Shown here piece after piece: positions 5,392 to 32,900 of a stretch of 33,543 nucleotides of DNA (positions are counted from its first letter, which is position 1; every line of letters begins with the position of its first letter). The DNA comes from Ramlibacter sp. Lineage in GTDB: Bacteria; Pseudomonadota; Gammaproteobacteria; Burkholderiales; Burkholderiaceae_C. Both the position numbers and the translations under genes were made by a program. The notes beneath the pieces are model-generated. The model did no database searches, was not told the origin of the DNA, and saw nothing but the letters and a program-made list of their open reading frames with translations. The stretch spans positions 1 to 33,543 of the forward strand of contig JAURKV010000185.1 of NCBI GenBank assembly GCA_030831585.1. Reading direction: 5' to 3'.

Positions 5392-5396
5392 GATCC

Positions 5397-5412
5397 TTCT
5401 TGTACACAAGAA
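5397..5412. promoter_or_regulatory. Perfect 7-2-7 inverted repeat, candidate GntR/FCD operator
   Basis: TTCTTGTACACAAGAA has perfect 7-nt arms around AC and contains the TNGT-N2-ACNA pattern of FadR-type GntR operators. It covers the predicted sigma-54 start (about 5403), so a bound repressor would block promoter opening or clearance. The last gene of this run (16588-17304) encodes a GntR/FCD regulator and is the obvious candidate binder, which would make it autoregulatory. Confidence 0.6.
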
Positions 5413-5425
5413 TGGATGCTTCAAA

Positions 5426-7213: not shown

Positions 7214-7255
7214 GTCACGCCCCACCCTGAAGCCACACCCTAGCCAAAGACGCGC

Positions 7256-9251: not shown

Positions 9252-9331
9252 CCTGAGTTCCTTGTGCAGACCGCTGGCATGAATCTCGCTCGCTTTTTTC
9301 AATGTCCCTCAACCTACCTGGAGAGTTCCTC

Positions 9332-10459: not shown

Positions 10460-10490
10460 TCGCCAAGCGCGCACGCTGGAGCCTTTTGCC

Positions 10491-12517: not shown

Positions 12518-12529
12518 AGGAGAAGAGCG

Positions 12530-13585: not shown

Positions 13586-13587
13586 CC

Positions 13588-14271: not shown

Positions 14272-14280
14272 AGGCCTGAC

Positions 14281-19372: not shown

Positions 19373-20127
19373 TGGATTTGCAGCTTTTTCCAAATGTGCT
19401 CGCGCAGGTCCTGGAAATAGGACTGGGTTCGCACGAGCGGGGCTCGGGGCCGTGGAATGTCCACAGGGATGATTTCCATCACCGTGGCCGGACGCGAAGA
19501 CAGGACAATGATCCGGTCGCCCAGGTAGATCGCTTCCTCAATGTCGTGGGTGACCAGCAGCGCCGAGGTGTTGCCCTCGGCGACCACCTTTTGCAGGTCG
19601 TGCTGGAGCGATTGGCGGGTCATGGCGTCAACCGATGCGAAGGGCTCGTCGCACAAAAGCAGCTTGGGCTTCACCGCGATGGCACGGGCAATGCCCACCC
19701 GCTGCTGCATGCCACCCGACAACTGCTTGGGCGCAAACTGCTCAAAGCCCTTGAGCCCGACCCGATTGATAGCGTCTTGCACCCGGGCAGACTGCTCCTG
19801 GTCTGTCAGACCCAGCGTGTGCAGTGAGAACCGCACGTTTTGCTCCACGGTCAGCCAGGGCATCAGCCCCGACTGCTGAAACACCATGGAGCGCTCCGGG
19901 CCGGGGCCATCGATCTCTTGACCTTGCAGGTTCACATGGCCCTGGTTGGCCGTTTCGAGTCCGGCAATGATTCGCAGCAGGGTTGTTTTTCCCGAGCCAC
20001 TGGCACCCACGATCGTGATGAGTTCTCCCTCACGCTGGGTGAAGGAGACGCCCTCAATGACCGATAGCGAGCCCTTTGCCGTATCGAATGTCTTGTGGAT
20101 CTGGTGAACTTCAAGCAGGTCGGACAT
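19369..20127 (-). CDS. ABC transporter ATP-binding protein, SsuB/TauB type
   Basis: ATPase of about 252 residues. Walker A is GASGSGKTT, Q-loop MVFQQSGLMPWLTVEQNV, signature LSGGMQQRVGIARAIA, Walker B KLLLCDEPFASVD, H-loop LVTHDIEEAIYLGDRI. All catalytic residues are present. The ATG at 20127 (MSDLLEVHQ) fits best; a TTG at 20142 would overlap the binding-protein stop and is possible. It energises the TauT-type importer encoded on both sides. Confidence 0.92.
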   Translation of the reverse strand: MSDLLEVHQIHKTFDTAKGSLSVIEGVSFTQREGELITIVGASGSGKTTLLRIIAGLETANQGHVNLQGQEIDGPGPERSMVFQQSGLMPWLTVEQNVRFSLHTLGLTDQEQSARVQDAINRVGLKGFEQFAPKQLSGGMQQRVGIARAIAVKPKLLLCDEPFASVDAMTRQSLQHDLQKVVAEGNTSALLVTHDIEEAIYLGDRIIVLSSRPATVMEIIPVDIPRPRAPLVRTQSYFQDLREHIWKKLQIQ

Positions 20128-20134
20128 GCGCAGG

Positions 20135-21166
20135 TCAGCCAAAGTTCACGCCCAGTTCATTGAGAACGGTGCGAATGGGGTCGGCAGCCACGAGTTTTTC
20201 GCGGGGAACCTGGTTGAGGGGAACGTTCATCCCCTTGGCGGCTTTCTCGATGTCAAATTCAAAGTCGCCGCGGGACGCGTCCATGCGCATCATCCAATGA
20301 CCGCGGTGCAGTTCCCAGGATTCTTCGGCAGTCTTTGCGTCCATGCGGTAGGGTGCGGCGGTCATGACTTCCATGGTGAACGCCTTGTCCTGGCGCATGC
20401 GCAGGGTGGCCTTGACCATCGCACGCAAAAATGCGCGCACGGTGTCCGGGTGGTTTTCCAGCGTTGCGGTGCCTGTGGACCAGCCGAGGTTGGCCGCCCC
20501 GTTCTTCATGCCTTTGGACTTGCGCCAGTCGTTGTAATCGATCAGCTTTTTGAAGCCCTGCTGGCGTGCACGGCCGAACAGGCTGTCGTTCATGTTTGCA
20601 GCGTCGACCGTGTTAGAGGCCAGCGCACCAAAGCCGTCAAAGCCTTCGACGCGAACCACATCGGTCAAGGCCACGCCGGCATCGGTGAGCAACTCGTTCC
20701 AGACCAGATCGAGTGTTTCGCCAGGGCGCACAGTCTGGATACGCTTTCCCTTGAGGTCGGAGAACTTGTCAATGCCGCTGCCCGGGCGCGACCAGAAGTT
20801 GTAGGGCAGCAGGGTGGAGACCATGGCAATTTGGCGCACGGGGGCGTTCTGCCCCATCACCGCGCGGATCACGGTGTTGGCACCCAGGCCGAACACGCCA
20901 CGCTCGCTCATGGTCAGCTGCGTGACCTCGCTCCAGCTTCTGAAGTTGCTCACCGTGACGTTCAGGCCCTCGGCCTTGAACGCATCCATACGCAGGGCGG
21001 CATCGACAGCGGCGGCATGATTGAGCACTGTGAGCGGCCGCGCGATGATGATGTTGGGGCGAGAGAGGGCTTGTGCACGCACATAGGCCGGCGCAGCCAG
21101 CAATACGGCGGCCCCCAGGCCAGCCTGAATGAGTTGGCGGCGTTGTGTCTTGTTTGTGGCTTTCAT
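20135..21166 (-). CDS. NMT1/SsuA-type periplasmic substrate-binding protein (Tat signal)
   Basis: Binding protein of 343 residues. The ATG at 21166 has GGAG 8 nt upstream. The N-terminus QRRQLIQAGLGAAVLLAAP has twin arginines, so Tat export is likely, with cleavage near YVRAQA. The body follows the NMT1/THI5-like pattern: AAVDAALRMDAFKAEGLNVTV, LTMSERGVFGLGANTVIRA, and a region starting DLKGKRIQTVRPGETLDLVW. Ligands in this family range from sulfonates to thiamine-pyrimidine precursors and aromatic acids. It lies 35 nt after a zinc-ribbon enzyme-like gene, in one operon with ferredoxin and the TAXI-like protein. Confidence 0.87.
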   Translation of the reverse strand: MKATNKTQRRQLIQAGLGAAVLLAAPAYVRAQALSRPNIIIARPLTVLNHAAAVDAALRMDAFKAEGLNVTVSNFRSWSEVTQLTMSERGVFGLGANTVIRAVMGQNAPVRQIAMVSTLLPYNFWSRPGSGIDKFSDLKGKRIQTVRPGETLDLVWNELLTDAGVALTDVVRVEGFDGFGALASNTVDAANMNDSLFGRARQQGFKKLIDYNDWRKSKGMKNGAANLGWSTGTATLENHPDTVRAFLRAMVKATLRMRQDKAFTMEVMTAAPYRMDAKTAEESWELHRGHWMMRMDASRGDFEFDIEKAAKGMNVPLNQVPREKLVAADPIRTVLNELGVNFG

Positions 21167-21201: not shown

Positions 21202-21864
21202 TCAGGAAGCGGCGCGGGCGGCTTTTTGTTCTTCTGAGTCGTTCCAGGTGAAGATGGAATAAGCGTGCGGATGAACCGTACCGCATCGCTTGCAGGTGCG
21301 CAGGCTCAGCTCGGAATTGAACACCTCAAAGGCGTCCTCCTCGACGGCATAAAAACCGGGCAGGCCCACGCGACCGGTTTCCACCTCGCGCATGTACAGG
21401 GGGTTCAGGCAACTGGTGCAAAACCAGGCGAAGCGGTCACGGCGGCCCCGCTTCGGGAAGCCCTCGATCAACACCGTGACACGCCGGGTCTCCGAGAGGG
21501 TGAGGTTCATCGCGAGCTCTTGCTCGTCGTTGATGTGCCAGAACCCATAAATGTGCTCAGAGCGGTGCGGAACCAGCGGCGGCGTGAACATCATGTGCCG
21601 GCGCGGCTCCACCGCAATCTTCCCGTCCACGATCTTGAGCGTATTGCCGTTTCGCATGCCCAGACGAGAGGGATCATTCTCGTGGAATCGCAGTCCGATC
21701 AGCATCTCTCCAACCGGGAAAAAGCTGCGATATCGAAGCGCCGCATCGTCGTCGAGCATGTCGACGACGGTCAGCGCCCCTTTGCGCCCCACGATGTCTT
21801 GCAGCAGGGCAAAGGCATCATCGGACAAGCCCGGCTTCGGGCCTGCGGAAGTGACTTGGTCCAT
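21202..21864 (-). CDS. Zinc-ribbon, cupin-like protein related to 3-hydroxyanthranilate dioxygenase (copy A)
   Basis: A 220-residue protein from ATG 21864, 13 nt after the TAXI-like gene; longer in-frame starts overlap that gene. The C-terminus has a rubredoxin-like zinc ribbon: C149-x2-C152 in FAWFCTSCLNPLY and C191-x2-C194 in CKRCGTVHP, as in bacterial 3-hydroxyanthranilate 3,4-dioxygenases. The middle segment VPHRSEHIYGFWHINDEQE holds H100, H104 and H110, candidate metal ligands (H-x5-H, where 3-HAO uses H-x5-E). It is clearly paralogous to the genes at 28957-29598 and 28376-28960. A role in oxygenation or ring cleavage is inferred and unproven; no signal peptide, so cytosolic. Confidence 0.7.
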   Translation of the reverse strand: MDQVTSAGPKPGLSDDAFALLQDIVGRKGALTVVDMLDDDAALRYRSFFPVGEMLIGLRFHENDPSRLGMRNGNTLKIVDGKIAVEPRRHMMFTPPLVPHRSEHIYGFWHINDEQELAMNLTLSETRRVTVLIEGFPKRGRRDRFAWFCTSCLNPLYMREVETGRVGLPGFYAVEEDAFEVFNSELSLRTCKRCGTVHPHAYSIFTWNDSEEQKAARAAS

Positions 21865-21877
21865 ACGGCTTCTGGCC

Positions 21878-22843
21878 TCAGGCGGCTTTCCGGCTCTGCT
21901 TGCTGTCGGCGTAGTAGCGCAGCGCGCCCTCGTGGTACTCGACGCCCGGGGTCTCAAACATGGCCTTCACGTCAATCGGGTAGATCATGGGAGAGTGCTT
22001 GATCGGCATCCAGCGGTACTGGTTTTCAATCACACGCTTTTTCTCGGCCATGACCTGCGCGACGCGGTAGGCGATTTCAGGGTCCAGGTCACGGCGGCAG
22101 ATGATCAGCCAGTCTGCCCAGTCGATGCAGTCGACGTCGCCACCGGTGTAACCAAAGGTCGCGGGAAGCTTGGCCGGACCGTAGCCGTACTCCTTGGCCA
22201 GGTGGTCGAGCAGCGCTTTGTCGAAGGACATGAAGCGCCCGCCGCGGTCGTGGATCAATTCGAACCACGGCTTGAGCATCACTGCCTCGTGAATCAGGAT
22301 GTCCGCATGGCCGTCGATGATTTTTTCAACGCCCTGGCCGGGGCCGCGGTCGAGGTGAAGCAGATCGCCACCCCATGAGCGCAGGCGATCTTGGGTGATG
22401 CCGTAGAACTTGAGGATCTCGTGGCTGGCAAAGGCCACCGATGCGCCGTCGTCCTCGAGGTCGGCGGCGATGCGCAGCGGCAGTCGCTGTGCGGCGATGT
22501 CGTGCAGGGAATTGATCTTGACGTGGCTGGCCACACCGCAGGTGAGACGATCGTCGTGCTGGAGCGCGCCCAGGGTTACCAGGTCGGGGTAGGCCGTGGT
22601 GAAGGGGCCGCGACCTTGGCGTGCGAGGTTCAGGTTTTGGGTGGGGGTGATGATGCCCAGATCAGCCTCGCCGCGCGCCACGCGGTGGATGTTGTCAACC
22701 ACGCCGTTACCGAGCTTGATGTCAAAGCGTGACTTGGGGTCGAAGTGGTCACGCAGGCCCCACATGATCCAACCCGCCACGCGAGTGAAGTTGGTGGTGC
22801 CCCAGCAGGTGGAAAAATCAAGTTCAATTTTGCGTTGTGTCAT
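21878..22843 (-). CDS. TAXI-family solute-binding-fold protein without signal peptide (copy A)
   Basis: A 321-residue protein of the TAXI periplasmic-binding-protein family, judged by DNIHRVARGEADLGIITP, the LPLRIAADLED hinge region and the C-terminal YHEGALRYYAD. It starts MTQRKIELDFSTCWGTTNF with no hydrophobic signal, and no in-frame extension could supply one. GGAGACAG precedes the ATG, which overlaps the ferredoxin stop by 4 nt. No TRAP-TAXI membrane gene is present. Segments shared with copy B (29639-30628) include CIDWADWLI, AYRVAQVM and H283 before YPID at 288-291. I infer a cytosolic enzyme or carrier. 4,5-dihydroxyphthalate decarboxylase, a binding-protein-fold enzyme, is the precedent. 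Confidence 0.75.
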   Translation of the reverse strand: MTQRKIELDFSTCWGTTNFTRVAGWIMWGLRDHFDPKSRFDIKLGNGVVDNIHRVARGEADLGIITPTQNLNLARQGRGPFTTAYPDLVTLGALQHDDRLTCGVASHVKINSLHDIAAQRLPLRIAADLEDDGASVAFASHEILKFYGITQDRLRSWGGDLLHLDRGPGQGVEKIIDGHADILIHEAVMLKPWFELIHDRGGRFMSFDKALLDHLAKEYGYGPAKLPATFGYTGGDVDCIDWADWLIICRRDLDPEIAYRVAQVMAEKKRVIENQYRWMPIKHSPMIYPIDVKAMFETPGVEYHEGALRYYADSKQSRKAA

Positions 22844-23196
22844 GCTGTCTCCTTTGAAATTTGTTGTTTGGCGGCGAGCGCCGCGGCGGCGATGGCGTCG
22901 GGATCGAATTCGTAGTCAGAGCAGTTGATGACGGTCACATCGCCCTCGGCCAGTTTGAGCTGGCAGCCGAGGCGGAACCCCTCTTGCTTGCCCCAGCCCT
23001 CAATGAACATGGCCTCACGCGGGCGAGCCGGCGCGGGCTGACCGTCCACCACGACGACCGCGCAGGTGCCGCACAGCGCCGACGAGCCGCAAAACCGGCG
23101 CCACGGCTCTCCGGCTGCCTCCGCTGCTTGCAGGAGCGATTGGGTGGGCGTTGCTTGCAGCTCAAGCTGCCGGTTCAAAACTCTAAAACAGGCCAT
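22840..23196 (-). CDS. [2Fe-2S] ferredoxin (plant/vertebrate-type fold)
   Basis: A 118-residue ferredoxin. The cluster ligands are C36-x5-C42-x2-C45 (in RFCGSSALCGTCAVVV) and C78 in GFRLGCQL. ATG at 23196 has GGAG 5 nt upstream; a GTG directly before it (23199) is an alternative. The stop overlaps the TAXI-like start as ATGA. It probably passes electrons to an oxygenase, either one acting with the neighbouring zinc-ribbon protein or the Rieske oxygenase at 31578. No ferredoxin reductase is in the window. First gene of its operon, with paired palindromes upstream. Confidence 0.88.
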   Translation of the reverse strand: MACFRVLNRQLELQATPTQSLLQAAEAAGEPWRRFCGSSALCGTCAVVVVDGQPAPARPREAMFIEGWGKQEGFRLGCQLKLAEGDVTVINCSDYEFDPDAIAAAALAAKQQISKETA

Positions 23197-23250
23197 CACG
23201 TCTCCTGGAGGCTCTTTTCTTCCAGGGATCGTAAAGTACTTTGTGGATTA

Positions 23251-23285
23251 GGAACAGCGTTCCGCCGAGGGGAACGTGTCGTTCC
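23251..23285. promoter_or_regulatory. Two adjacent GGAAC/GTTCC inverted repeats, candidate operators
   Basis: Between the stop of livF (23318) and the ferredoxin start (23196) lie GGAACAGCGTTCC (23251-23263) and GGAACGTGTCGTTCC (23271-23285). They have perfect 5-nt arms with spacers of 3 and 5 nt, and corresponding arms are 20 and 22 nt apart, about two helical turns. This is the only long gap ahead of the ferredoxin/TAXI/ABC operon, so it most likely holds its promoter and regulator sites. The regulator is not identifiable. Confidence 0.5.
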
Positions 23286-23317
23286 GGGTCTGTGTGCTGT
23301 CATCTGCGCGAGCAAAC

Positions 23318-24082
23318 TCAGACGCTCAGATAGCGCTCGGCAAGATCGCGCACATCGGCCTCGCTTACATCGCGCTGGCTGTGGACGATCTGTCCAGACT
23401 GGAGCACATGGAGGTCGTCCGCCATGCTGGCGGCCACACGAAGATTCTGTTCAAACAGCAGAACATCAATGCCGCTGTCGTTGACCTTCTTCAGGGTGCC
23501 CACCACCAGATCCACCATGATCGGTGCCAGGCCCTCGGTCGGTTCGTCCAGGACCAGGATTCTGGGGTGTCCGCTCAGCGCACGGCCAATCGCGAGCATT
23601 TGCTGTTCGCCCCCCGACAGCACCGACGCCAGCTGGCGACGACGCTCCTCGAGCCGCGGGAACAGGTCGTAAAGGGAGTCCAGCGTCCACGTGGGAGGGC
23701 TGCCATCACGTGGCGGATGCGCAGCGACTTGCAGGTTCTCCTCGACACTGAGTGAGGCAAATACCCGCCTTCCCTGGGGCACGTAGCCAATTCCCAGTTG
23801 GTGTCGGTCCCAGGTCGCGCTTGATGAAATGTCGCGTGTCCCGCCTGGCGACGCGACCGCCCCATCGGCCGCCCCATCGGCCGCAATGGTCATAGTGCCC
23901 TCGGCGGACGGACCGGTCAGCCCGAGCAGGGCCCGGGCCAGGGTTGTTTTTCCAGCGCCGTTGCGGCCGATCACCACCACCTGCCGGCCATCGCCGATGC
24001 CCAGCGTCAGTCCCTGCAGCACATGGCTGTCGCCAATGAAGACATCGAGGTCACAGACGTTCAGCTGCATGCGGCTTGTCAC
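23318..24082 (-). CDS. livF: Branched-chain-type ABC transporter ATP-binding protein LivF
   Basis: ATPase of 254 residues of the LivF class. Walker A is GRNGAGKTTLARALLGL, signature LSGGEQQMLAIGRALSG, Walker B ILVLDEPTEGLAP, and the H-loop region reads DVLLFEQNLRVAA, with Glu-Gln in place of the usual His, which is normal for LivF. An insertion around residues 70-95 (EGTMTIAADGAADGAVAS) lengthens the segment before the Q-loop GYVPQGRRVF. The start is GTG at 24082, overlapping the livG stop as GTGA; ATG at 24070 is an alternative. Last gene of the Liv-type operon. Confidence 0.9.
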   Translation of the reverse strand: MTSRMQLNVCDLDVFIGDSHVLQGLTLGIGDGRQVVVIGRNGAGKTTLARALLGLTGPSAEGTMTIAADGAADGAVASPGGTRDISSSATWDRHQLGIGYVPQGRRVFASLSVEENLQVAAHPPRDGSPPTWTLDSLYDLFPRLEERRRQLASVLSGGEQQMLAIGRALSGHPRILVLDEPTEGLAPIMVDLVVGTLKKVNDSGIDVLLFEQNLRVAASMADDLHVLQSGQIVHSQRDVSEADVRDLAERYLSV

Positions 24083-24816
24083 CCCAGGTAGATTTTTTGA
24101 ACCAGCGGGTGGGCTCTGACCTCGTCCGCAGTGCCCGAAAAGATTGCTTCGCCTAAATAAAGCACGGTGATCTGATCGGCAATCGCCAGCGCATCTTCGA
24201 GGTGGTGTTCGACCATCAGGACCGCGATGTTCTGGGACAGGTCGTCCAGGCGCCTTGCCAGGACCTGGCGCTCCTGGGCGGTCAGCCCCGCCATCGGCTC
24301 GTCCATCAGCAGCAGGGCCGGTTGGTTCGCCAGTCCAAGGGCGATCTCCAATTGCCGCTGCTCGCCGTAGGCCAGCTGACCCGCTGTCATATGCCGCTTG
24401 GCCTGCAGGCCGCTGGTCTCCAGCAGGGAGGCCATGTGGTCCTGGACCTCGGCTGCCGTACGTTTGCCCAGATGGGGCGCAGGTGCCTGCACCGCCAGCC
24501 GCAGGTTGTCTTCTACGCTCAGTTCGCGAAACAGGCTGGCCACCTGGAAGGTTCTGGCGATGCGCCTTTGTGCACGCTGGTGCGGCGCAAATCGGGTGAT
24601 GTCTTGCCCGTCGAAGTGGACAGACCCCGATGTGGGCTTGTATTGGCCGGACGCGACGTTGAAAAGTGAGGTCTTTCCGGCGCCGTTCGGTCCGATTAGG
24701 ACATGGCAGCCGGTTGGGGCGACATCCAGGTCAACCCCACGCAAAATGTCCACGCCGCCGAGCGAAAGGCGCACGCTGCGCATTGAGAAAAGAGCTTGGG
24801 CTGCCATCGTCATCAC
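24079..24816 (-). CDS. livG: Branched-chain-type ABC transporter ATP-binding protein LivG
   Basis: ATPase of 245 residues. Walker A GPNGAGKTSLFNVASG, Q-loop ARTFQVASLFRELSVEDNL, a signature changed to LAYGEQRQLEIALGLA, Walker B ALLLMDEPMAGLT and H-loop LMVEHHLEDALAIAD. The helical arm typical of LivG (DITRFAPHQRAQRRIARTFQ) is present. The start overlaps the permease stop as ATGA (24813-24816). It works with LivF on the fused LivH-LivM permease. Confidence 0.92.
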   Translation of the reverse strand: MMTMAAQALFSMRSVRLSLGGVDILRGVDLDVAPTGCHVLIGPNGAGKTSLFNVASGQYKPTSGSVHFDGQDITRFAPHQRAQRRIARTFQVASLFRELSVEDNLRLAVQAPAPHLGKRTAAEVQDHMASLLETSGLQAKRHMTAGQLAYGEQRQLEIALGLANQPALLLMDEPMAGLTAQERQVLARRLDDLSQNIAVLMVEHHLEDALAIADQITVLYLGEAIFSGTADEVRAHPLVQKIYLG

Positions 24817-26714
24817 GTCTGTTTGTCAGATCGCTCGGGGAACAGCCGGTTGAATGCGCCAGCCAGCCCGCGCGGCGCCAAGATGGCGACGGAGATGAAC
24901 AGAATGCCTTGGAGGGCCTCCCAGTGCGATGTCCAGCGCGTCACGAACTCCTCCGCGCCTACCAAGACAAGCGCGCCCAGCAGCGGCCCGACAAAAGTGC
25001 CTGCGCCGCCAAGAATGGTGATCAGCATGATCTTTGCCGAAATCACGATTCCGAGCAGCTGTGGACTTACGAAGCCGGCGTGAAACGCGAACAGGGCGCC
25101 CGCCAGACCCGTGATGGTGCCCGACAGAACGAAGGCCGCGAACTGGTACACCCAGGTGTCATAGCCCAGGGCTGAAAGGCGCCGGTCGTTGCCCTGCAGG
25201 CCCTGAAGCACTCGCTTGAAATGTGATTTGTGCAAGCGATAGAACACCACACAGACCAGGAAAAAAACCGCTGCGACGGCATAGTAGAAAGCGGAGCTGC
25301 TTTCGGCGGGGACGCCGGGCATGGAGAGTTTTGCGCCCAGGCGCATGCCATCGTCTCCGCCGGAGAAGGACCGCCACTTGAACATCACACCCCAGGCCAG
25401 TTGCCCCAAGGCGACGGTCGCCAACAGAAAGTAGACCAGCCGCGTGCGCAGAGCTAAAACGCCAAAAATTGCCGCCATGACAGTCATGCAGGCAACAGCG
25501 GCGACCAGCAAAAGCCAGGATGGTCCTTGCCAGTACTTGGCCAGCAGGGCGACTGCATAGGCGCCGCCCCCAAAAAAGGCCGCATGGCCGAAGGAGGGCA
25601 TGCCCGCGTACCCCAACAGCACGTTGAAGCCCAAGCCCACGATGGCCCAGATCAGGATCAATGTCAGTACACCCACGCCGTATGGCGACGAAAGCATGGG
25701 AAAGATCACCAGAACGGCCAGGAGTGCCAGACCTACCTTCCAAGCGGGCACCGTCCGTGCGCGCTCGACCCAGGGTTGCAAGCGGCGTGCGAACCCCTCG
25801 GGCTCCTTGCTGCCGCGGGTGTCGCGGGACACCGGCACCACATGCGTCAACACCCGGCCCGACAGGCCACTGGGCCTGAACAGCAGGATCAAAAGCAGCG
25901 GGAGGAACAGCATGAACATCGAGGCTTCGGGAAACAGGATCTTCCCGACCGAATCGATCACACCGACCAGCATTGCGGCCAGGTAGGCGCCCCCGAGCGA
26001 GCCAATCCCTCCGACCACCACCACCACCAGGGCCAGCAGAAACACCTCGAGGTCCAGGCCCGATCGGGCGCCCAGGAAGGGCGCGCCAAGCCCGCCCGCC
26101 AGCCCGGCGAGAAGGCCGCCAAGGCCGAAAATAATCCAACGCAACCTCGGAACCACCACGCCGCTGGTCTGCGCCATTTCCTCGTCGTCGACGGCGGCTC
26201 GCACGATGCTGCCCAAACGCGTGCGTTCGAGCAGCCACCACAGCGCCAATGCGACGGTGAGCCCGCATCCGATCAGGAACAGGCGGTAGGCGGGGTAGCT
26301 CATGACCCCCATGGGGACCGACCAGTCCCAAATGTCTGGCACCTGCACCACACGCGGCGTGCCGCCCCAGACCCCGTGGAAGACATCCGCGAAGATATGC
26401 AGCAGCCCCAGGGTGACCAACACCTGGGCCAGGTATTGGCCCTGCAGCCTGTACAAAAGAAAGCGCTCAGAGAGCGCGGCAACCAGTGCGGCGACGATCG
26501 CTCCGCCAGCCACGGCCACGACCATGCCGGTTCCTGCCTCGACTAGGCTGTACGTCAGATAGGCCGCAGCCAGGTAGAGGGACCCATGGGCCAGATTGAT
26601 GACCTTCAGCACGCCGAAGATCATCGAGAAGCCCGCCGCTAGGAGGAACAGGAGGCTGCCGTACGCGACTCCGTTGATGATGGAGAGGGTCCACACAGTG
26701 CTAGGGCCGATCAC
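24813..26714 (-). CDS. Fused LivH-LivM branched-chain-type ABC permease
   Basis: One 633-residue protein containing both permease subunits that are usually separate. The N-terminal half (about 1-290) is LivH-like: INGVAYGSLLFLLAAGFSMIFGVLKVINLAHGSLYL and the coupling loop RLGSIVRAAVDDEEMAQTSGV. A charged linker (about 293-325, VPVSRDTRGSKEPEGF) leads into a LivM-like half: LILIWAIVGLGFNVLLGYAGMPSFGHAAFFGGGAY and the loop HFKRVLQGLQGNDRRLSALGYD. Both halves have full helix sets, so the channel is probably an intramolecular heterodimer. The frame is open throughout, so it is a true fusion in this sequence. Confidence 0.92.
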   Translation of the reverse strand: MIGPSTVWTLSIINGVAYGSLLFLLAAGFSMIFGVLKVINLAHGSLYLAAAYLTYSLVEAGTGMVVAVAGGAIVAALVAALSERFLLYRLQGQYLAQVLVTLGLLHIFADVFHGVWGGTPRVVQVPDIWDWSVPMGVMSYPAYRLFLIGCGLTVALALWWLLERTRLGSIVRAAVDDEEMAQTSGVVVPRLRWIIFGLGGLLAGLAGGLGAPFLGARSGLDLEVFLLALVVVVVGGIGSLGGAYLAAMLVGVIDSVGKILFPEASMFMLFLPLLLILLFRPSGLSGRVLTHVVPVSRDTRGSKEPEGFARRLQPWVERARTVPAWKVGLALLAVLVIFPMLSSPYGVGVLTLILIWAIVGLGFNVLLGYAGMPSFGHAAFFGGGAYAVALLAKYWQGPSWLLLVAAVACMTVMAAIFGVLALRTRLVYFLLATVALGQLAWGVMFKWRSFSGGDDGMRLGAKLSMPGVPAESSSAFYYAVAAVFFLVCVVFYRLHKSHFKRVLQGLQGNDRRLSALGYDTWVYQFAAFVLSGTITGLAGALFAFHAGFVSPQLLGIVISAKIMLITILGGAGTFVGPLLGALVLVGAEEFVTRWTSHWEALQGILFISVAILAPRGLAGAFNRLFPERSDKQT

Positions 26715-26753
26715 CCAACCCTTTGCGGGCCAGGTTGAAGGGCTGCAGGAGGT

Positions 26754-27935
26754 TCAGCGCGCCTGCCAGTTCTGGTCGACGCCGGTGGCAATCGGCGCCA
26801 CCAGTTCGGGGATCGGCTTGCCGGCGCGATCGACGATCTTGACCGCGTAGAGGTTGAAGACGACGTTTTGCTTGTCGTCAAAGCGGAAGGGCCCTTGCGG
26901 CGTCGTCGGCAGATTCACCCGGCGCAGCGCAGCCAGCAACTCGGCCTTGTTTTCGACGCGCCCGTTGACTGCCTCGATGGCCTTCGCCAAGGCCATGGCG
27001 CCCACATAGGCTCCCGCGGTGGCGGACCCCGGTACCGACTTGTACTGTGCGGTGTAGGCGTCGACAAAGCGCTTGTTGACGTCTCCGGGCAGGTCCGGGA
27101 TGTACCAGGTGGAGACTTGGGCGCCCACCGCCGAGCGTCCCATGGCTGGCAGTAGCGGCTCGTACGTCAAACCGGCCGAGCCGGTAAGTGGGATGCGGGC
27201 CTTGAAGCCCAGCTGGTCATATTGCTTGACGAAGCCAATAGCATCTTGGCCGAGGAACATGGCCCAGACCGCGTCGACGTTGGAACTCGGGATCTGTGCC
27301 AGGAAGGGAGCGAAGTCGCTTGTGCCCAGGGGCACCATGATCTTTTTGACGATCTCGCAGCCCGCCTTCTTGTACGACTCCTCAAACGCGTTGGCCTGCT
27401 CCTGGCCCGTCACGAAGTCTGAGGCCATGATGACCGTGCGCTTGTAGTTCATCTTCTGGCAGGCGTACTGCCCGTAAGGCGCGGTGAACTGCCGGTTGGT
27501 GAAACTGGTTCTGAAGATGTACGGGCTGCCCCGGGCGGCAGTGAGGTCATTGGCGCCTGCTGCGCCCATGATCACCAGGGGCATCTGCTTTTCATGGATG
27601 TAGTCGCGTACCGCGTAGCCGACGGCGCTCGAGGTGATGCCTGTGACGACATGGACGCCCTCTCGCTCCACCAGGCGCTTGACCCGCTCCAGCCCCTGGG
27701 CTGGGTTGGACCCTTCGTCCTCCTGGACAAACTGCACCTGACGGCCGGCAATTCGGTTGCCGATCTCGTTGAAGTACATCTGGAAGCCGTTGGTGGCCTC
27801 AATGCCGGGCGTCGACAGCGGGCCTGTGGACGGGTGGATGATGCCGATCTTGATCGGGCCGGTCTGGGCCTGCGCGGCGCCAGCAGCGCAAAGGGCAGAA
27901 ACGAGCAAGGCTGCGAGGGGTTTCTTGGCTGTCAT
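26754..27935 (-). CDS. Branched-chain-type (LivK-like) periplasmic binding protein
   Basis: Type I periplasmic binding protein of 393 residues. The ATG at 27935 starts a Sec signal (MTAKKPLAALLVSALCAAG, cleavage near AQA); AAGGA lies about 9 nt upstream. An ATG at 27974 would put extra charged residues in front. The mature start GPIKIGIIHPSTGPLSTPGIE is typical, as are QEDEGSNPAQGLERVKRLVEREGVHVVTG and the C-terminal PFRFDDKQNVVFNLY. Relatives in aromatic degradation clusters bind aromatic or short-chain acids, not only amino acids. It lies 90 bp after the Rieske ferredoxin and 39 bp before the permease. Confidence 0.9.
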   Translation of the reverse strand: MTAKKPLAALLVSALCAAGAAQAQTGPIKIGIIHPSTGPLSTPGIEATNGFQMYFNEIGNRIAGRQVQFVQEDEGSNPAQGLERVKRLVEREGVHVVTGITSSAVGYAVRDYIHEKQMPLVIMGAAGANDLTAARGSPYIFRTSFTNRQFTAPYGQYACQKMNYKRTVIMASDFVTGQEQANAFEESYKKAGCEIVKKIMVPLGTSDFAPFLAQIPSSNVDAVWAMFLGQDAIGFVKQYDQLGFKARIPLTGSAGLTYEPLLPAMGRSAVGAQVSTWYIPDLPGDVNKRFVDAYTAQYKSVPGSATAGAYVGAMALAKAIEAVNGRVENKAELLAALRRVNLPTTPQGPFRFDDKQNVVFNLYAVKIVDRAGKPIPELVAPIATGVDQNWQAR

Positions 27936-28025
27936 GGGTTCGTGTCCTTTGTGGTGGGTTGCAAAGTCAATCAAGAACTGGGGGTGATCGCCACGATGCC
28001 GGCTGTGGCTTGGCTCGTGCCGCGA

Positions 28026-28379
28026 TTATTCGATGTCGACATAGACCTTGTTGTCGAGCACCTTGACCGGATAGATCTTCAATTGCATCTGGCTCTTGTC
28101 GCAGGCGACTGCGTGGCCGGTGCAAACGTCGAACCTGAAAAAGTGCCAGGGGCAAATGACCTCTCCTTCGACCACCCGGCCGAGGCGCAAGGGGCCATCC
28201 ATATGCGGGCAGCGGGTATCGAAGGCGACGATGTCGTCACTCCCTGCCGATCGCCGGGCGACCGCGATGGCGCGTCCTTCCACACGGCATGTCAAGACAG
28301 CGCCATCGGCCGGGACATCCGACCTTGCGCAGGCCAGATGGGACGGCTCGGAGCGTGGAGGCGGTGCTTGTATCGTCAT
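28026..28379 (-). CDS. Rieske-type [2Fe-2S] ferredoxin
   Basis: A 117-residue Rieske protein. Cluster ligands are C57-x-H59 (RCPHMDGPLRLG) and C76-x2-H79 (ICPWHFFRFDV), the pattern of soluble Rieske ferredoxins in ring-hydroxylating systems. ATG at 28379 overlaps the stop of the zinc-ribbon paralogue (ATGA). It is small and has no membrane anchor, so it should act in the cytosol as an electron carrier. It differs from the plant-type ferredoxin used in the other TAXI module. It may serve the zinc-ribbon protein pair or the Rieske oxygenase at 31578. Confidence 0.9.
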   Translation of the reverse strand: MTIQAPPPRSEPSHLACARSDVPADGAVLTCRVEGRAIAVARRSAGSDDIVAFDTRCPHMDGPLRLGRVVEGEVICPWHFFRFDVCTGHAVACDKSQMQLKIYPVKVLDNKVYVDIE

Positions 28380-28960
28380 GCGCCGCCCTGCAAATGCCGG
28401 CCTGACCGCATCGCCGCGGTTGGCGGGTGAACCATCTCGCAGGCGCCGCAGCGACGTGACTGCGCGTCGGCGTCGAATTCGGCAGCGGCCGCCTCGGCGA
28501 CCTTGAGCATGGCGACAAAGCCCGCGGTGGCGATCGGCACTGTGCGTGACCCGATGGCGGTACCGCAGCTCGGGCAGGTCCAATCGACGGTCGCAGTGGC
28601 GGGTTTGCCGGCGGCTCCGCCTACGGCAAGCAGCGCGTAGCGTCCGGACTCGCTGGGTGTGTCCAGCCACATGGCATCCGAGTCGAGTGTCAGCCAGTAG
28701 CCCATCAAGTTCTCGATGGTGAAGGGGGTCCCACGGCTGATCCGGTGAAACACGGGGCCGCCGTCGGCCAACTCGAGGCAAGCGACCTTTTGGCCGATGC
28801 GCTCAAGCAAGCGGTATCTTGATTCTTGGCTGGACGTTCCGCTCCAGATAGCGTACTGGCCTCTGTGCTGCCAGCCCAGGCTCGCGTCGCTAAACAGGCG
28901 CACAAATGACATGTCCGGCGCCGGAACCGCCGCAGCGGAGGGGAGGTAGCCGCGGTTCAC
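28376..28960 (-). CDS. Zinc-ribbon, cupin-like paralogue lacking the candidate metal-binding histidines (copy C)
   Basis: A 194-residue protein. The GTG at 28960 overlaps the stop of copy B (GTGA), with GAGG upstream; GTG 28963 is equally possible. It keeps the zinc ribbon (C129-x2-C132 in WTCPSCGTA; C171-x2-C174 in CGACEMVHP) and the surrounding strands. At the three His positions of copies A and B it has F80, N84 and L90 (GTPFTIENLMGYWLTLD). The simplest reading is a non-catalytic partner subunit of copy B. The N-terminal half is divergent, so family membership rests on the middle and C-terminal parts. Confidence 0.7.
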   Translation of the reverse strand: MNRGYLPSAAAVPAPDMSFVRLFSDASLGWQHRGQYAIWSGTSSQESRYRLLERIGQKVACLELADGGPVFHRISRGTPFTIENLMGYWLTLDSDAMWLDTPSESGRYALLAVGGAAGKPATATVDWTCPSCGTAIGSRTVPIATAGFVAMLKVAEAAAAEFDADAQSRRCGACEMVHPPTAAMRSGRHLQGGA

Positions 28961-29598
28961 CACAGAAACCTCGCCTCGCGCTCTTCGGGTCGGTCGGCCT
29001 GCTGCATGCCTGAATAGGCCAGCGGGTTGTGGTGCCCGCAGGTGGGGCAGATCTGGTGCTCTGGGTCGGCGTTGTAGTCGCGTACGGCGGCCAGTTCTGC
29101 GGCCCAGAACTTGTCGAAGTTGGTGGACTCTCGCATGAACAGCAGGGTCAGGCACTTGTCGCAGTACCAAGCAAACCGGTCTGTCTCATTTCCCGCTGGC
29201 ATCCCCATGATGATGAGAACCCGCCCGGGGCGGTCGCCATCGGGAGGCAGGGGGATGATGATTTCATCCTTGTCGTTGATATGCCAGTAACCAAAGACAT
29301 GCTGCGTCCGGTGCGGCGTGCCTGCGCGCGTCACGTGAGCGGAGTAAGGGATGCGCGGGACCTCGATCACGCCCTGAGGGCCAATCTCGTAGTTCTTGCG
29401 AATGGCAGGCAGGGCGACCGGAACCGTCTTCTCACCAAGCTGGGCGACAGTGGCGCGCTCGATGTTGCGTATCCCGATGATGTTGTCGCCGGTTCCCTTG
29501 AATCCGAAGAACTGGCGGATCACATCGTCTGCCAGCAGGTTCCACTGAGGGAGCGTGTCATCCAGCGGCGTGGTTAGCGCAATATCCTGATAAAGCAT
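28957..29598 (-). CDS. Zinc-ribbon, cupin-like protein related to 3-hydroxyanthranilate dioxygenase (copy B)
   Basis: A 213-residue protein; ATG at 29598 with GAGG 6 nt upstream. The central segment TPHRTQHVFGYWHINDKDE has H96, H100 and H106, aligned with H100, H104 and H110 of copy A. The zinc ribbon is C146-x2-C149 (FAWYCDKCLTLLF) and C184-x2-C187 (CPTCGHHNP). The arrangement of a ligand-rich strand followed by a zinc ribbon resembles bacterial 3-HAO. It is followed with 4-nt overlap by its degenerate paralogue, which suggests a two-subunit complex. Function (metal-dependent oxygenase, or only a structural fold) is inferred. Confidence 0.7.
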   Translation of the reverse strand: MLYQDIALTTPLDDTLPQWNLLADDVIRQFFGFKGTGDNIIGIRNIERATVAQLGEKTVPVALPAIRKNYEIGPQGVIEVPRIPYSAHVTRAGTPHRTQHVFGYWHINDKDEIIIPLPPDGDRPGRVLIIMGMPAGNETDRFAWYCDKCLTLLFMRESTNFDKFWAAELAAVRDYNADPEHQICPTCGHHNPLAYSGMQQADRPEEREARFLW

Positions 29599-29638
29599 GT
29601 GGCCTCGTAGGAAGGGGTGGGTCAGTCGAAGTTAGGCC

Positions 29639-30628
29639 TCATGCGCCCTTCATGTACCCATGCTCGCGGTAGTAGCGCTCGGCGCCAGGGTGAAGCGGCG
29701 CGCCCACACCTCTCCACATGGCGTAGGGGTCGATTGGGTAGGTCATCGCTGCATGCTCGGAGGGAAGATGCCGGTAACGCCCTTCCAACTCGGCACGCTC
29801 CTCGACCATCAAAGAGGTAATGCGGTAAGCCATGTCGTCGTCCATGTCGTCGCGCACCAAGATCGCCCAGTTTGACCAGTCGATGCACTGCACGTCTTCT
29901 GGCGCCTTGAGATAGCCCTTGGGCATGACGCCGGGCCGGAGCCCGTACTTCGACTGCAAGCGTTGCAATGCGTCCGGCTCGTAGGAAAGAAAGCGCATCG
30001 GTACTTTCTCGACCAGCTCGCGCCACTGCGGCACCACGATCGCCTCATTAATCACGGCATTGGCTTGTCCGTTGGTGACGAACGGGACGCAGATCCGCGG
30101 GAAGTCGTGCTCTAGCCACTCCCCCCCCCAGCCTTCAACCTCAATTCCATGCTCCTCCAGCACACGATCGACCGCCCACATCATCATGTTGTCTTCGGTT
30201 CGAAACGCGCTGGCCAGTTTCAGCGGAAATTTACGGTCACGCAGATCCTGCCAGGAGGTGATTCCGGTGTCTGCCCGAATGGCGAACACCAGACGGTCGT
30301 TTTGCGGCAACCAGCCGAGCGCACGCATGCCGGGCAACTGCCCGCGACCCGCGAAGTAGTGCGAGCCTGCCATCGCCCACTCGGGCGCGAGGTCGAAAGG
30401 AGTCGTGATTGCCAAGTCGACTTCTCCCGAGGCCAAAGCCTTGATGTTGTCGCCATAGCCGGTTCCGGTCTTGATCCAGAACTCTGAGTCCGGCTCTGAG
30501 CGCCAGCGCAGGTGGGCGCAGATCCAGCCCGCGATCGCATGAAAGTTGGCATTGCCCCAGTCAGCAACGATCTTGAAATTGACGCGCGGACCCACGGTGT
30601 CCTTATTGATGACCGTCTTCATATCCAT
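29639..30628 (-). CDS. TAXI-family solute-binding-fold protein without signal peptide (copy B)
   Basis: A 329-residue protein. The ATG at 30628 has GGAG 6 nt upstream; longer in-frame extensions run into the divergent tetR region and contain no signal sequence either. TAXI features are ADWGNANFHAIAGW, DNIKALASGEVDLAITTP and the very typical C-terminus PLHPGAERYYREHG. It aligns with copy A along its whole length: NDRL, WGGEWL, NAVINEA, CIDWSNWAIL, and H292 before YPID at 297-300. With no signal peptide and no TRAP permease it should be cytosolic. First gene of the operon that continues with two zinc-ribbon proteins, a Rieske ferredoxin and the Liv-type importer. Confidence 0.77.
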   Translation of the reverse strand: MDMKTVINKDTVGPRVNFKIVADWGNANFHAIAGWICAHLRWRSEPDSEFWIKTGTGYGDNIKALASGEVDLAITTPFDLAPEWAMAGSHYFAGRGQLPGMRALGWLPQNDRLVFAIRADTGITSWQDLRDRKFPLKLASAFRTEDNMMMWAVDRVLEEHGIEVEGWGGEWLEHDFPRICVPFVTNGQANAVINEAIVVPQWRELVEKVPMRFLSYEPDALQRLQSKYGLRPGVMPKGYLKAPEDVQCIDWSNWAILVRDDMDDDMAYRITSLMVEERAELEGRYRHLPSEHAAMTYPIDPYAMWRGVGAPLHPGAERYYREHGYMKGA

Positions 30629-30784: not shown

Positions 30785-31447
30785 ATGGAGACGGCGAAAG
30801 TGGACAAGATCGGCAATCGACAGACCCCCAAACTGCGCACATTGCGAAGCGACCAAAAGGACGCGACGCGCGAGCAGATTCTTGAGGCCGCCACCCAACT
30901 GCTCTCCGAACACGGTTACGCGTCGCTTCGTGTAGCCGCTGTCGCCCGTGAAGCCGGCGTGTCGCTGGGTGGGCAGTTGCACCACTTTCCCAGCAAAGAT
31001 GGTCTTGTGGTGGCTGTCCTCGAGCGTTTGTCGCAACGTGTGATGCAGCGAGCCGCCGATGAAGCTTCGATAGCTTCGCTGGACGATGACCTGTTTGTCA
31101 CGCTCTCCCGAAGTGCCGAGCGTTTCTACACCGCGCCCGAGTTTCTGATCTACCTCGACATCTTTCTCTCGGTGCGCAGGCACACCCTGGTGGGTGACAC
31201 GGCCATTCGGCTACTGACCTCGCAGCGCTCTGAGACTGAGGCGCTTTGGCTGGCCCATCTCAATAAGCGTGGTATTTCGCCCAGCGAAGGCATTCTGATC
31301 ATCCGCACGATCTGGGCGCTTTCGCGCGGTCTTGCGATTTCATCAGCTGGCGAGGCGGGCAAGTCCAACAAGCAGGCCACGATCAACTACGCTATTGACG
31401 CCTTGCGCCATCGGGCTGGTCTCTCGCTAGGCCAAGCCGCACCCTGA
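30785..31447 (+). CDS. TetR-family transcriptional regulator
   Basis: Regulator of 220 residues. HTH in the N-terminus: TREQILEAATQLLSEHGYASLRVAAVAREAGVSLGGQLHHFPSKDGL, about residues 28-75. The C-terminal ligand domain is helical and not assignable. It is divergent from the TAXI copy B operon across 156 bp and lies upstream of the Rieske oxygenase, so it probably controls one or both. The ATG at 30785 has no Shine-Dalgarno sequence; a GTG at 30800 has GGAG about 9 nt upstream and may be the true start, shortening the protein by five residues. Confidence 0.9.
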   Translation: METAKVDKIGNRQTPKLRTLRSDQKDATREQILEAATQLLSEHGYASLRVAAVAREAGVSLGGQLHHFPSKDGLVVAVLERLSQRVMQRAADEASIASLDDDLFVTLSRSAERFYTAPEFLIYLDIFLSVRRHTLVGDTAIRLLTSQRSETEALWLAHLNKRGISPSEGILIIRTIWALSRGLAISSAGEAGKSNKQATINYAIDALRHRAGLSLGQAAP

Positions 31448-31577: not shown

Positions 31578-32900
31578 ATGATCACGCGCGAAGAAAACGA
31601 TTTGCTATGCCGCGTCGAGGGCGAAGCGCCCATGGGCCGCCTGATGCGCCAACACTGGGTGCCGATCTGCCTGAGCGAGGAGGTGGCAGATCCGGACTGC
31701 GACCCCGTGTCCGCGCGCATCCTGGGCGAGAACCTGGTGGTGTTCCGTGACAGCGATGGCCAGGTAGGCGTGCTCGACGAGGCCTGCCCGCATCGCGGAC
31801 CTTCGCTGGTTTACGGTCGCAACGAGGAGGGCGGTCTGCGCTGCCTCTATCACGGCTGGAAGATGGACGTGCACGGAAACGTGATCGAGATGGTGTCCGA
31901 GCCGGCGGCCAGCGGCTTTATGGACAAGGTCAAGCACAAGGCTTACCCGGTCAAGGAGTGGGGCGGCATGGTGTGGGCCTGGATGGACCCGCAGGTCGAC
32001 ACGCCGGAGTTCGTGCCGCCCTTGTGGGCGCCGACGGCTGATACGCGCGTGGCCATTGGCAAGGCCATCTTGCCGGTGAACTGGGTGCAGGTGCTCGAGG
32101 GCGCGATCGACTCGGCGCACAGCTCGAGCCTGCACAGCTCGGACATGGTGCCGGCACGCGTGCAGGGCGCCGAGGCCAATGACAAGAACTGGCTGCGTCC
32201 CACCACCGACAAGGCCCCGCGGATGCAGGTTCAGCGCACCGGCTACGGATTTCGCTACGCCGCCATTCGCCGGCCTATCTTCAATGCGCAGACGCACGAC
32301 TATGTGCGCACCACCGTCTTCGTCGCGCCGTTCACCGTGTTGATTCCGCCCAACAACCTGTACAACGTGGCCAACGTCAACGTGCCGATGGACGACACCC
32401 ACATGGTGTTCTACTTCATCGGCTGGGGCCACGCCGAGCAGACGCCAGACACCGCGGCATGGCGGCGCTTTCTGCATCTGACCGTGGGTGTCGACGTGGA
32501 CGAGCGCTATAGGCCGCTGCGTAACCACGAGAACCGTTTCTGGCAAGACCGGCAGGCGATGCGGGACGGCAACTTCACCGGCATTCAAGGAATCCCGAAC
32601 CAGGACATGGCCATGTGGGTGTCGATGGGACGCCTGACCGACCGGACCCGCGACAGGCTCGGTGCCAGCGACCTGGCGGTGGTGGAGTTTCGCAAACAGA
32701 TGATCGAGGCTGTGCGCGCCGTGGCAGACGGCAGTCCGGCCATCGGCACCGGCGACCACAAAGCGCCCACTGAAGTGTGCTCATTCCAGAGCGTGATTCC
32801 CAAGACCATTGACTGGCGTGCCTACGACGCCCGCCCGATCTGGCTGGGGGTGGAAGAGGCCCAGGCCGGAACCGACCAGAACTACGCGGTGAAGGCCTGA
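31578..32900 (+). CDS. Rieske non-heme iron ring-hydroxylating oxygenase, phthalate dioxygenase type
   Basis: Oxygenase component of 440 residues. The Rieske domain has C70-x-H72 (EACPHRGPSL) and C89-x2-H92 (CLYHGWKMD). The mononuclear iron site is H181 and H186 in AIDSAHSSSLHSSD, with D178 as the likely bridge to the neighbouring Rieske cluster and D343 (NQDMAMW) as the third ligand. Length and the single-subunit pattern fit the phthalate 4,5-dioxygenase and carbazole-like alpha-only group. These enzymes hydroxylate or demethylate aromatic acids using O2 and NAD(P)H-derived electrons. No reductase gene is in the window; the two small Fe-S proteins encoded leftward could be intermediates. The ATG has no obvious Shine-Dalgarno sequence. 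Confidence 0.92.
   Translation: MITREENDLLCRVEGEAPMGRLMRQHWVPICLSEEVADPDCDPVSARILGENLVVFRDSDGQVGVLDEACPHRGPSLVYGRNEEGGLRCLYHGWKMDVHGNVIEMVSEPAASGFMDKVKHKAYPVKEWGGMVWAWMDPQVDTPEFVPPLWAPTADTRVAIGKAILPVNWVQVLEGAIDSAHSSSLHSSDMVPARVQGAEANDKNWLRPTTDKAPRMQVQRTGYGFRYAAIRRPIFNAQTHDYVRTTVFVAPFTVLIPPNNLYNVANVNVPMDDTHMVFYFIGWGHAEQTPDTAAWRRFLHLTVGVDVDERYRPLRNHENRFWQDRQAMRDGNFTGIQGIPNQDMAMWVSMGRLTDRTRDRLGASDLAVVEFRKQMIEAVRAVADGSPAIGTGDHKAPTEVCSFQSVIPKTIDWRAYDARPIWLGVEEAQAGTDQNYAVKA

Follow-up and report, generated by a model that had tools for sequence, protein, structure and literature searches.

A 33,543-nucleotide contig of Ramlibacter sp. (GenBank assembly GCA_030831585.1, listed as 81% complete; contig JAURKV010000185.1, our contig C140), which we analyzed at its full length and call the window, carries two gene modules that each encode at least one protein like 3-hydroxyanthranilate 3,4-dioxygenase (HAO), a ring-cleaving enzyme of tryptophan breakdown, together with a [2Fe-2S] protein, a signal-less TAXI protein and an importer. 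From sequence and gene context we propose, with a probability of about 0.5, that these HAO-like proteins act as the terminal components of multicomponent oxygenases for aromatic acids, with the HAO fold as their scaffold. Both modules lie within one run of 15 co-directional genes on the minus strand (30628 down to 17347; Table 1). Module B comprises, in order, TAXI-B, HAO-like B1, HAO-like B2, a Rieske ferredoxin and a Liv importer (23318-27929); module A comprises a [2Fe-2S] ferredoxin, 118 nt from LivF, then TAXI-A, HAO-like A, an SsuABC-type importer (18614-21166) and an MFS gene. Beyond module B, on the plus strand, a TetR gene is followed by a Rieske oxygenase gene. All the genes that an earlier sequence-only reading of this DNA had named in the two modules were found, and their core genes are paralogous, as that reading held: TAXI-A and TAXI-B are 36% identical, as are HAO-like A and B1. 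The tight coupling by 4-nt overlaps that it described exists at three of the five core junctions (B1/B2, B2/Rieske and ferredoxin/TAXI-A), whereas the other two are gaps of 40 and 13 nt.

The HAO-like proteins, previously described as zinc-ribbon cupin-like proteins, are present, but the description can be recast: by the tests used they are relatives of HAO, not members of its family, and the zinc-ribbon portion is the Cys4 part of HAO. A Pfam search with HAO-like A, B1 and B2 gave no family above its cut-off. Their C-terminal third matches HAO in NCBIfam (NF009763) with E-values of 5e-9 (A), 1e-5 (B1) and 6e-3 (B2), at scores (36.4, 25.1 and 16.5 bits, respectively) far below the curated cut-off of 220 bits. 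When a profile of 28 relatives was searched against the PDB, it found HAO structures at E 1e-8, and hhalign of the HAO-like profile with HAO gave 98.6%, mostly over the C-terminal half. An early AlphaFold model of B1 was weak (pLDDT 66), although its first 21 Foldseek matches were HAO (TM 0.32-0.45 by query, 0.28-0.54 by target). A model of HAO-like A was then built from more alignment rows (pLDDT 81.6), and its first 22 Foldseek matches in the PDB were all HAO; the best had an E-value of 6e-6 over 193 columns, with 19% identity and a TM of 0.45 by query and 0.56 by target, and the next match after HAO was unrelated (E 0.03). The Foldseek ranking and the conservation of the Cys4 residues together point to an HAO fold with a C-terminal Cys4 site.

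Homologous loci (L numbers) place these proteins beside electron donors. A genome scan yielded 14 loci. Among 298 genomes searched from the family of a Beijerinckiaceae-titled metagenome-assembled genome (MAG; G917), seven had matches. Three further searches, each of which included the Ramlibacter genome itself among its hits, matched 6 of 300 genomes of the order (five of them weak HAO-type), 3 of 398 of the phylum and, with a TAXI query, 2 of 250 of the family; a plasmid search with B1 gave no match. We counted neighbors within 8 kb of 25 catalytic genes, 10 of type A and 15 of type B or C. These 25 rows are not independent and represent about 14 lineages by eye: the near-identical window and L016 are each counted once for A and once for B, and there are close groups (L092/L094/L095, L089-L091, L018/L019, L024/L025/L027, L026/L028 and window/L029). 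Less than 8 kb was available on one or both sides in L016 (A), L021, L022, L025, L029 and L094 among others, so that absences there are weak. Type D rows and L062, described below, lie outside the 25.

A Fer2 ([2Fe-2S]) ferredoxin and an SsuA-type importer accompany all 10 type A genes. Around the type B and C genes, a second HAO-like subunit was found in 15 of 15 cases, a Rieske ferredoxin in 14 (missing in the decayed L021) and LivJ in 8. The electron donor lies no more than 1.4 kb from the catalytic gene in 24 of the 25 loci. Except for the window and L016, which have both modules, no type A locus had a Rieske-ferredoxin match and no type B or C locus a match to the module A ferredoxin (the phthalate block of L017 holds another Fer2 protein). 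A ferredoxin reductase or FNR is found near 4 of the 15 type B or C loci (L017, L018, L019 and L085), that of L017 belonging to its phthalate block. Since these neighbors recur around homologues only roughly 30-70% identical, in other families and classes of Proteobacteria, their association is more than chance. In 12 hand-picked control loci (179,255 bases, including loci fetched for TAXI and two stretches beside L018/L019) there was no module A ferredoxin and no SsuA match; a Rieske ferredoxin occurred in one, SsuB/SsuC in one and a ferredoxin reductase in three, and one control, L011, gave an HAO-like match, of type D. The co-occurrence of core homologues in other genomes, on which the sequence-only reading depended, was thus seen, and its idea of one reaction type that can work with different redox partners and importers is reasonable. 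Its view of TAXI as an invariant core component was not supported, as TAXI is found in only 3 of 10 type A loci (window, L016 and L029, one lineage) and in 8 of 15 type B or C loci, or 11 of 25 overall. What stays constant is the HAO-like protein with its electron donor, to which TAXI is often added, whereas the type of importer differs between loci.

Several of these loci have features of their own. The B module of Candidatus Burkholderia humilis (L021, 5743-9653) looks decayed, with broken TetR, TAXI and ferredoxin frames. In L026 (6812-9025) and L028 (8634-10727), one importer operon encodes two SsuA-type binding proteins in tandem. L023, from a record titled Bordetella parapertussis MAG, has a type A locus, and its species label may be wrong. 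Besides type A, one Defluviicoccus genome holds a third type C set (L062, 1498-3955), in which an HAO-like pair is joined by a signal-less TAXI.

The conserved residues distinguish two kinds of subunit. The H/H/E motif is present in all 25 catalytic subunits, 23 by script and two by inspection: L016-A was misframed in the motif script and is intact on direct reading, and the decayed L021 has LH for PH. The script also found the Cys4 residues in 24 of the 25, the single miss being the misframed row. None of the 15 second subunits of types B and C has the H/H/E motif (those of type C keep the first His and have lost the second His and the Glu), and 14 of them keep Cys4, the exception being cut by a contig end; Cys4 is therefore retained in all complete sequences, second subunits included. 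Such invariance of H/H/E in one subunit and its loss in the other is typical of a catalytic subunit paired with a non-catalytic one.

The iron ligands of HAO follow the order H-x5-E and then His. In types A-C no conserved His lies between H-x5-E and Cys4; an invariant His instead precedes the H-x-N-x3-E motif, and it may stand in for the later His of HAO. The H-x5-E of the HAO-like proteins aligns with the HAO cupin motif by way of type D, whose profile holds only four sequences, and this bridging alignment led us to revise an earlier idea that the HAO iron motif was wholly missing. The proteins of the modules thus resemble HAO (NF009763/TIGR03037; PDB 1yfu and 1zvf) in fold by model search, C-terminal Cys4 and cupin H-x5-E, but differ from it in scoring far below its curated cut-offs, in the place of the third His in types A-C, in the electron-donor gene nearby and in the degenerate second subunit of types B and C. 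Nor were kynurenine genes noticed in the loci read, where they were not specifically searched for.

Type D pairs, which were detected with a hidden Markov model (HMM) of the family, extend the range of donors. They were found in Phaeobacter gallaeciensis pGal_C110 and at two Defluviicoccus loci, and a further pair lies on pANTQ-1 of Sphingobium sp. AntQ-1. The pGal_C110 pair (L011, 16362-17645; annotated as hypothetical proteins) is accompanied by two signal-less TAXI genes, a ferredoxin-reductase-like FAD oxidoreductase and flavodoxin genes; a separate TAXI-TRAP pair also lies near it. On pANTQ-1 (L102, 12779-16218) the pair sits between an OphC homologue and a reductase of the phthalate-dioxygenase type (PDR/VanB), in the order nadC (opposite strand), small gene, OphC homologue, D1 and D2 (sphantq_RS22755, RS22750), PDR/VanB reductase. 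This OphC homologue is 78% identical to that of L017, which is itself 80% identical to a pCAR3 protein annotated as 4,5-dihydroxyphthalate decarboxylase. The Defluviicoccus loci L024 (14167-15471) and L027 (9852-11342) have a type D pair besides type A, with relatives of an AntQ-1 hydrolase nearby. Type D was found in none of 357 genomes in the family of G908, in a search without a positive control. By hhalign, D1 gives 97.6% with types A-C and 96.5% with HAO, and in D1 a His follows H-x-N-x2-D-E, as in HAO; type D may be a bridge between the two or a separate HAO offshoot. The co-occurrence of HAO-like genes with four kinds of donor is the strongest argument that their products accept electrons. 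Separately, we observed nadC-like genes for quinolinate phosphoribosyltransferase in or beside sphingomonad phthalate clusters (L017, 13193-14062; L056, 12735-13592; L102, 11219-12085), where they have no obvious NAD role.

The surroundings point to aromatic acids. The oxygenase encoded at 31578-32900 matches PDB 7fjl (E 3e-228), which is listed only as a Rieske domain protein and which we take to be the phthalate dioxygenase of Comamonas testosteroni KF1; it also matches 7fhr, named a putative phthalate 4,5-dioxygenase, at E 3e-65. The substrate residues described for the KF1 enzyme (PMC12445078), S182, R207, R244 and I256, are found at the same numbers in the window's protein, which looks like a phthalate 4,5-dioxygenase. 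In L016, which is near-identical to the window and extends further, a Gfo/Idh dehydrogenase and an FAD-NAD-Fer2 reductase follow the oxygenase. According to the portions seen of a study of Sphingobium AntQ-1, a luciferase-like monooxygenase (LLM) and an alpha/beta hydrolase are induced on anthraquinone, and phthalate is a product (PMC9836352). The AntQ-1 hydrolase is about 62% identical to that of L017/L084, and the monooxygenase is 58% identical to the LLM of L092. These likenesses, together with the phthalate product, suggest by analogy aromatic keto-acids and phthalates as the first candidate substrates. The AntQ-1 genes share with our loci the LLM, the hydrolase and an HAO-like pair adjoining an OphC homologue; unlike the other two, the pair is not mentioned in those parts of the paper's text (PMC9836352).

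Starting from the genes, homologies, conserved residues, partner pairing and phthalate context observed above, we infer an electron flow, metals, a reaction, a decarboxylation and a substrate as follows. Each module would combine an importer, probably for an aromatic (di)carboxylate, with a multicomponent oxygenase whose terminal component would be the HAO-family protein, one polypeptide in module A and a catalytic B1 with a degenerate B2 in module B. Electrons from NAD(P)H would pass through a ferredoxin reductase, which was not seen in the window, to the module's [2Fe-2S] protein (of the C-x5-C-x2-C type in A, Rieske in B), from there to the Cys4 site acting like rubredoxin, and on to a non-haem iron whose ligands would be H106, E112 and probably H96. 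Oxygen activated at this iron would bring about ring hydroxylation or aryl bond cleavage of the imported acid. The signal-less TAXI protein would be a cytoplasmic enzyme of the periplasmic-binding-protein type acting on the product, most likely a decarboxylase as OphC/Pht5 is, and the products would feed the phthalate 4,5-dioxygenase route. More tentatively, and at less than even odds, the loci may represent a new class of multicomponent aromatic oxygenases, with Cys4 as the electron port, a ligand-less duplicate as the second subunit and freely swapped donors (C-x5-C ferredoxin, Rieske ferredoxin, PDR reductase or flavodoxin), together with a signal-less TAXI protein turned cytoplasmic decarboxylase, the second such case after OphC. 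A close comparison is with three-component Rieske oxygenases (AndA, HcaEFCD), which likewise have a Rieske ferredoxin beside a two-subunit component; the ferredoxin reductase of L019 resembles AndAa/HcaD (below cut-off). Unlike theirs, the putative terminal component here is of the HAO type, Cys4 plus cupin, and the Pfam search found no Rieske domain (PF00355) in HAO-like A, B1 or B2. The four-component picolinate monooxygenase, looked up as a precedent, gave nothing usable. In the literature searched, which included few subscription papers and no supplements, neither an HAO-like enzyme fed with electrons nor a TAXI enzyme of the cytoplasm was described.

A number of observations weigh against this proposal. 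HAO itself is not known to require external electrons, and in types A-C its third iron ligand has no counterpart at the same place in the order of the sequence. The TM values of the HAO matches of the A model are low (0.30-0.45 by query, 0.29-0.56 by target). Type D scores with the family HMM at E-values of 1e-10 to 3e-5, no better than true HAO (1e-11 to 3e-8), as might be expected if it were a separate HAO offshoot, and no donor was identified beside the D pair in L024 and L027. Our two reductase queries matched near only 4 of the 25 loci and nowhere in the window. Phthalate-dioxygenase homologues more than 50% identical lie within 8 kb of only 4 of the 25 anchors (window B, L016 B, L017 and L029); in Bradyrhizobium L084 such a homologue lies farther off, and most other loci had no such match. 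Other oxygenases are not far away in places: L018 and L019 have an MhpA-like flavin monooxygenase at a distance of about 6-7 kb from B1, and L019 also has a fragment of a Rieske oxygenase 7.8 kb away. As for the TAXI part, no TAXI was found within 8 kb in 14 of the 25 loci, several of which are cut by contig ends; L017 and L084 carry both OphC and TAXI; and the likeness of TAXI to OphC is no more than distant (hhalign 83.9% over 80 columns).

The main rival, which we consider unlikely, is that the HAO-like proteins are ordinary extradiol ring-cleaving dioxygenases of a carboxylated catechol or aminophenol, whose ferredoxin only re-reduces oxidized iron and whose products are processed by alpha/beta hydrolases. 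XylT re-reduces the iron of catechol 2,3-dioxygenase in this way, and the relationship to HAO fits, as do the alpha/beta hydrolases of type A loci, weakly like PcaD, MenH or BphD (all below cut-off), and a Fer2 gene of pANTQ-1 that adjoins a catechol 2,3-dioxygenase gene, possibly as a reactivation pair. A repair ferredoxin, however, would hardly switch family in step with the enzyme type, nor would it bring a ferredoxin reductase (L018, L019, L085) or a PDR reductase (pANTQ-1), and the ligand order of HAO is changed in types A-C. Less probable again is that the HAO-like proteins are rubredoxin-like electron carriers or assembly partners with a non-catalytic cupin, serving a different oxygenase (for instance the Rieske phthalate dioxygenase or the LLMs). 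The universal Cys4 would suit such a carrier, and an LLM gene was present within 8 kb in 6 of 10 type A loci and in 2 of 15 of type B or C; but the invariance of H/H/E in one subunit and its loss in the other would not be expected of it, L019 has no other oxygenase among the genes from TAXI to the second MFS gene, and the phthalate dioxygenase has its own OphA1-like reductase nearby in L016 and L029.

The TAXI proteins pose a separate question. Both match PF16868 above and TIGR02122 below cut-off (Table 1), and a profile match to exported TAXI structures reached E 7e-15 (4ddd). No signal peptide was visible in either by eye or in a hydropathy window, the means used in place of a signal-peptide predictor, and with 16 (TAXI-B) or about 4 (TAXI-A) residues before the first domain strand there is no room for one, so that both look cytoplasmic, in keeping with the sequence-only reading, which called them signal-less. 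None of the eight DctM (TRAP permease) matches in the genome is on C140, which also fits that reading. All 13 signal-less TAXI proteins compared have N28, D111, E195 and W202. Of these residues, the last three are missing in the three exported proteins that were compared, although E195 also occurs in L066, whose N-terminus looks signal-like. The TAXI proteins appear to share their family with the binding proteins of TRAP systems (TIGR02122), including TAXI-GltS, but differ from them in lacking a signal peptide and a DctM on the contig and in having D111 and W202. Pairing of an exported TAXI protein with GltS in place of TRAP is known (PMC12344293). The 4,5-dihydroxyphthalate decarboxylase OphC/Pht5 (PDB 9jp7), the precedent for a binding-protein-like decarboxylase, is likewise of the periplasmic-binding-protein type without a transport role, and OphC-like proteins occur near HAO-like genes in L017, L026, L028 and pANTQ-1; it belongs, however, to the PF09084 branch, whereas TAXI-A and TAXI-B belong to the TAXI/NMT1_3 branch (PF16868). 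Decarboxylation by TAXI is a guess by analogy, weaker than the oxygenase claim, and the idea of TAXI as a plain replacement for OphC was weakened by the loci that have both. A signal-less TAXI about 50% identical to TAXI-B is also encoded in L030 (9820-10788), with no HAO-like match within the 19 kb read.

Alternatively, though this seems rather unlikely, TAXI could be a cytoplasmic ligand sensor or substrate carrier that senses the imported acid with TetR. TAXI-B adjoins the TetR gene in the window and in L016, L017, L018, L019, L021 and L084, and a TAXI-TetR pair lies about 32 kb from B1 in Bradyrhizobium; against this, no gene like this TetR stands beside TAXI-A or the type C TAXI, and the residues confined largely to signal-less TAXI proteins argue for a function of another kind. 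That TAXI is exported after all and paired with a distant TRAP permease is very improbable: DctM-type permeases do occur on other contigs, and phthalate import by TAXI-TRAP has been proposed or reported in other bacteria (PMC6362003, PMC13040137), but there is no room for a signal peptide, and a separate TAXI with a signal-like N-terminus lies on contig C54 of this genome, to which the TRAP permease search was confined.

We also examined the history of the modules in midpoint-rooted trees of 29 HAO-like and 21 TAXI proteins, which came with long-branch warnings. The HAO-like tree separates A, B1, C1 and the second subunits; B2 groups with C2 (99/98), while HAO-like A and B1 each group with genes of their own type from other genomes (100/100 for A, 99/97 for B1). 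In the TAXI tree, TAXI-B groups with L030 (93/95) instead of TAXI-A, TAXI-A is unplaced and, of 18 inner branches, 8 are open. If the duplicated module of the sequence-only reading is taken to mean that the whole module was copied locally, these trees do not support it, with A, B1 and TAXI-B each grouping with other genomes' genes; the two modules seem to be old paralogues that came to be assembled next to each other rather than a recent duplication. Its observation of two related modules stands, and its interpretation was half right; it did not contain the HAO relation, the degenerate second subunit or the neighboring phthalate 4,5-dioxygenase-like oxygenase.

Table 1 Features of the two modules and their flanks in the window
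Feature	Position	Strand	Remarks
TAXI-B	29639-30628	-	Signal-less TAXI/NMT1_3, proposed cytoplasmic enzyme (decarboxylase-like); PF16868 E 2e-23; TIGR02122 81.0 bits (cut-off 84.35)
HAO-like B1	28957-29598	-	Proposed catalytic subunit; PH-x9-H-x-N-x3-E (H96, H106, E112); Cys4 = C146, C149, C184, C187
HAO-like B2	28376-28960	-	Second subunit; Cys4 kept, H106 and E112 lost; GTG start, 4-nt overlap with B1
Rieske [2Fe-2S] ferredoxin	28026-28379	-	CPH...CPWH in translation; PF00355 E 3e-16
LivJ-type substrate-binding protein	26754-27929	-	PF13458 E 3e-74
Fused LivHM-type permease	24813-26714	-	Open reading frame (ORF), named by likeness; relatives near B1/B2 in L089-L092, L094, L095
LivG-type ATPase	24079-24816	-	ORF and relatives, named by likeness
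LivF-type ATPase	23318-24082	-	ORF and relatives, named by likeness
Module A [2Fe-2S] ferredoxin	22840-23199	-	PF00111 E 1e-11; C-x5-C-x2-C motif
TAXI-A	21878-22843	-	Signal-less TAXI/NMT1_3; PF16868 E 3e-13; TIGR02122 37.5 bits (cut-off 84.35)
HAO-like A	21202-21864	-	Proposed single catalytic protein of module A; NF009763 E 5e-9; model pLDDT 81.6
SsuA/NMT1-type substrate-binding protein	20135-21166	-	PF09084 E 8e-19; signal-like N-terminus
SsuB-type ATPase	19369-20127	-	ORF, named by likeness; relatives 59-63% identical in type A loci
SsuC-type permease	18614-19393	-	ORF and relatives, named by likeness
MFS transporter	17347-18588	-	Last gene of co-directional run
TetR-type regulator	30785-31447	+	Divergent from TAXI-B; ORF, named by likeness; same pair in L016, L017, L018, L019, L021, L084
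Phthalate 4,5-dioxygenase, oxygenase component (by sequence)	31578-32900	+	PF19301 E 2e-157; 7fjl E 3e-228; S182, R207, R244, I256 present

In the three gaps checked for a TetR operator, no inverted repeats of at least 7 nt and no promoter-like sites were found. Elsewhere in the window, a biuret/allophanate-type island occupies 5348-16577 on the plus strand; its genes above cut-off encode an allophanate hydrolase, an AtzE-type amidase, a formamidase and the biuret amidohydrolase BiuH. A further BiuH-like gene of the island scores below cut-off, and ABC genes accompany its gene for a BmpA-type binding protein. At 42-2146, the minus strand carries genes for a CitE-like lyase and a CoA-transferase.

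If the HAO-like proteins are indeed terminal oxygenases, they would add a further scaffold for oxygen-activating multicomponent enzymes besides the Rieske, diiron, P450 and flavin types, one that occurs in loci for the breakdown of phthalate and perhaps of oxygenated polycyclic aromatic hydrocarbons. We know of no explanation for the role of the Cys4 site in HAO, and under the proposal this puzzling iron site, present in the HAO of bacteria and yeast, would have a function that can be tested. The proposal would also explain genes annotated as hypothetical protein or TAXI transporter subunit, and would caution that a binding protein encoded in a catabolic operon can be an enzyme if it has no signal peptide.

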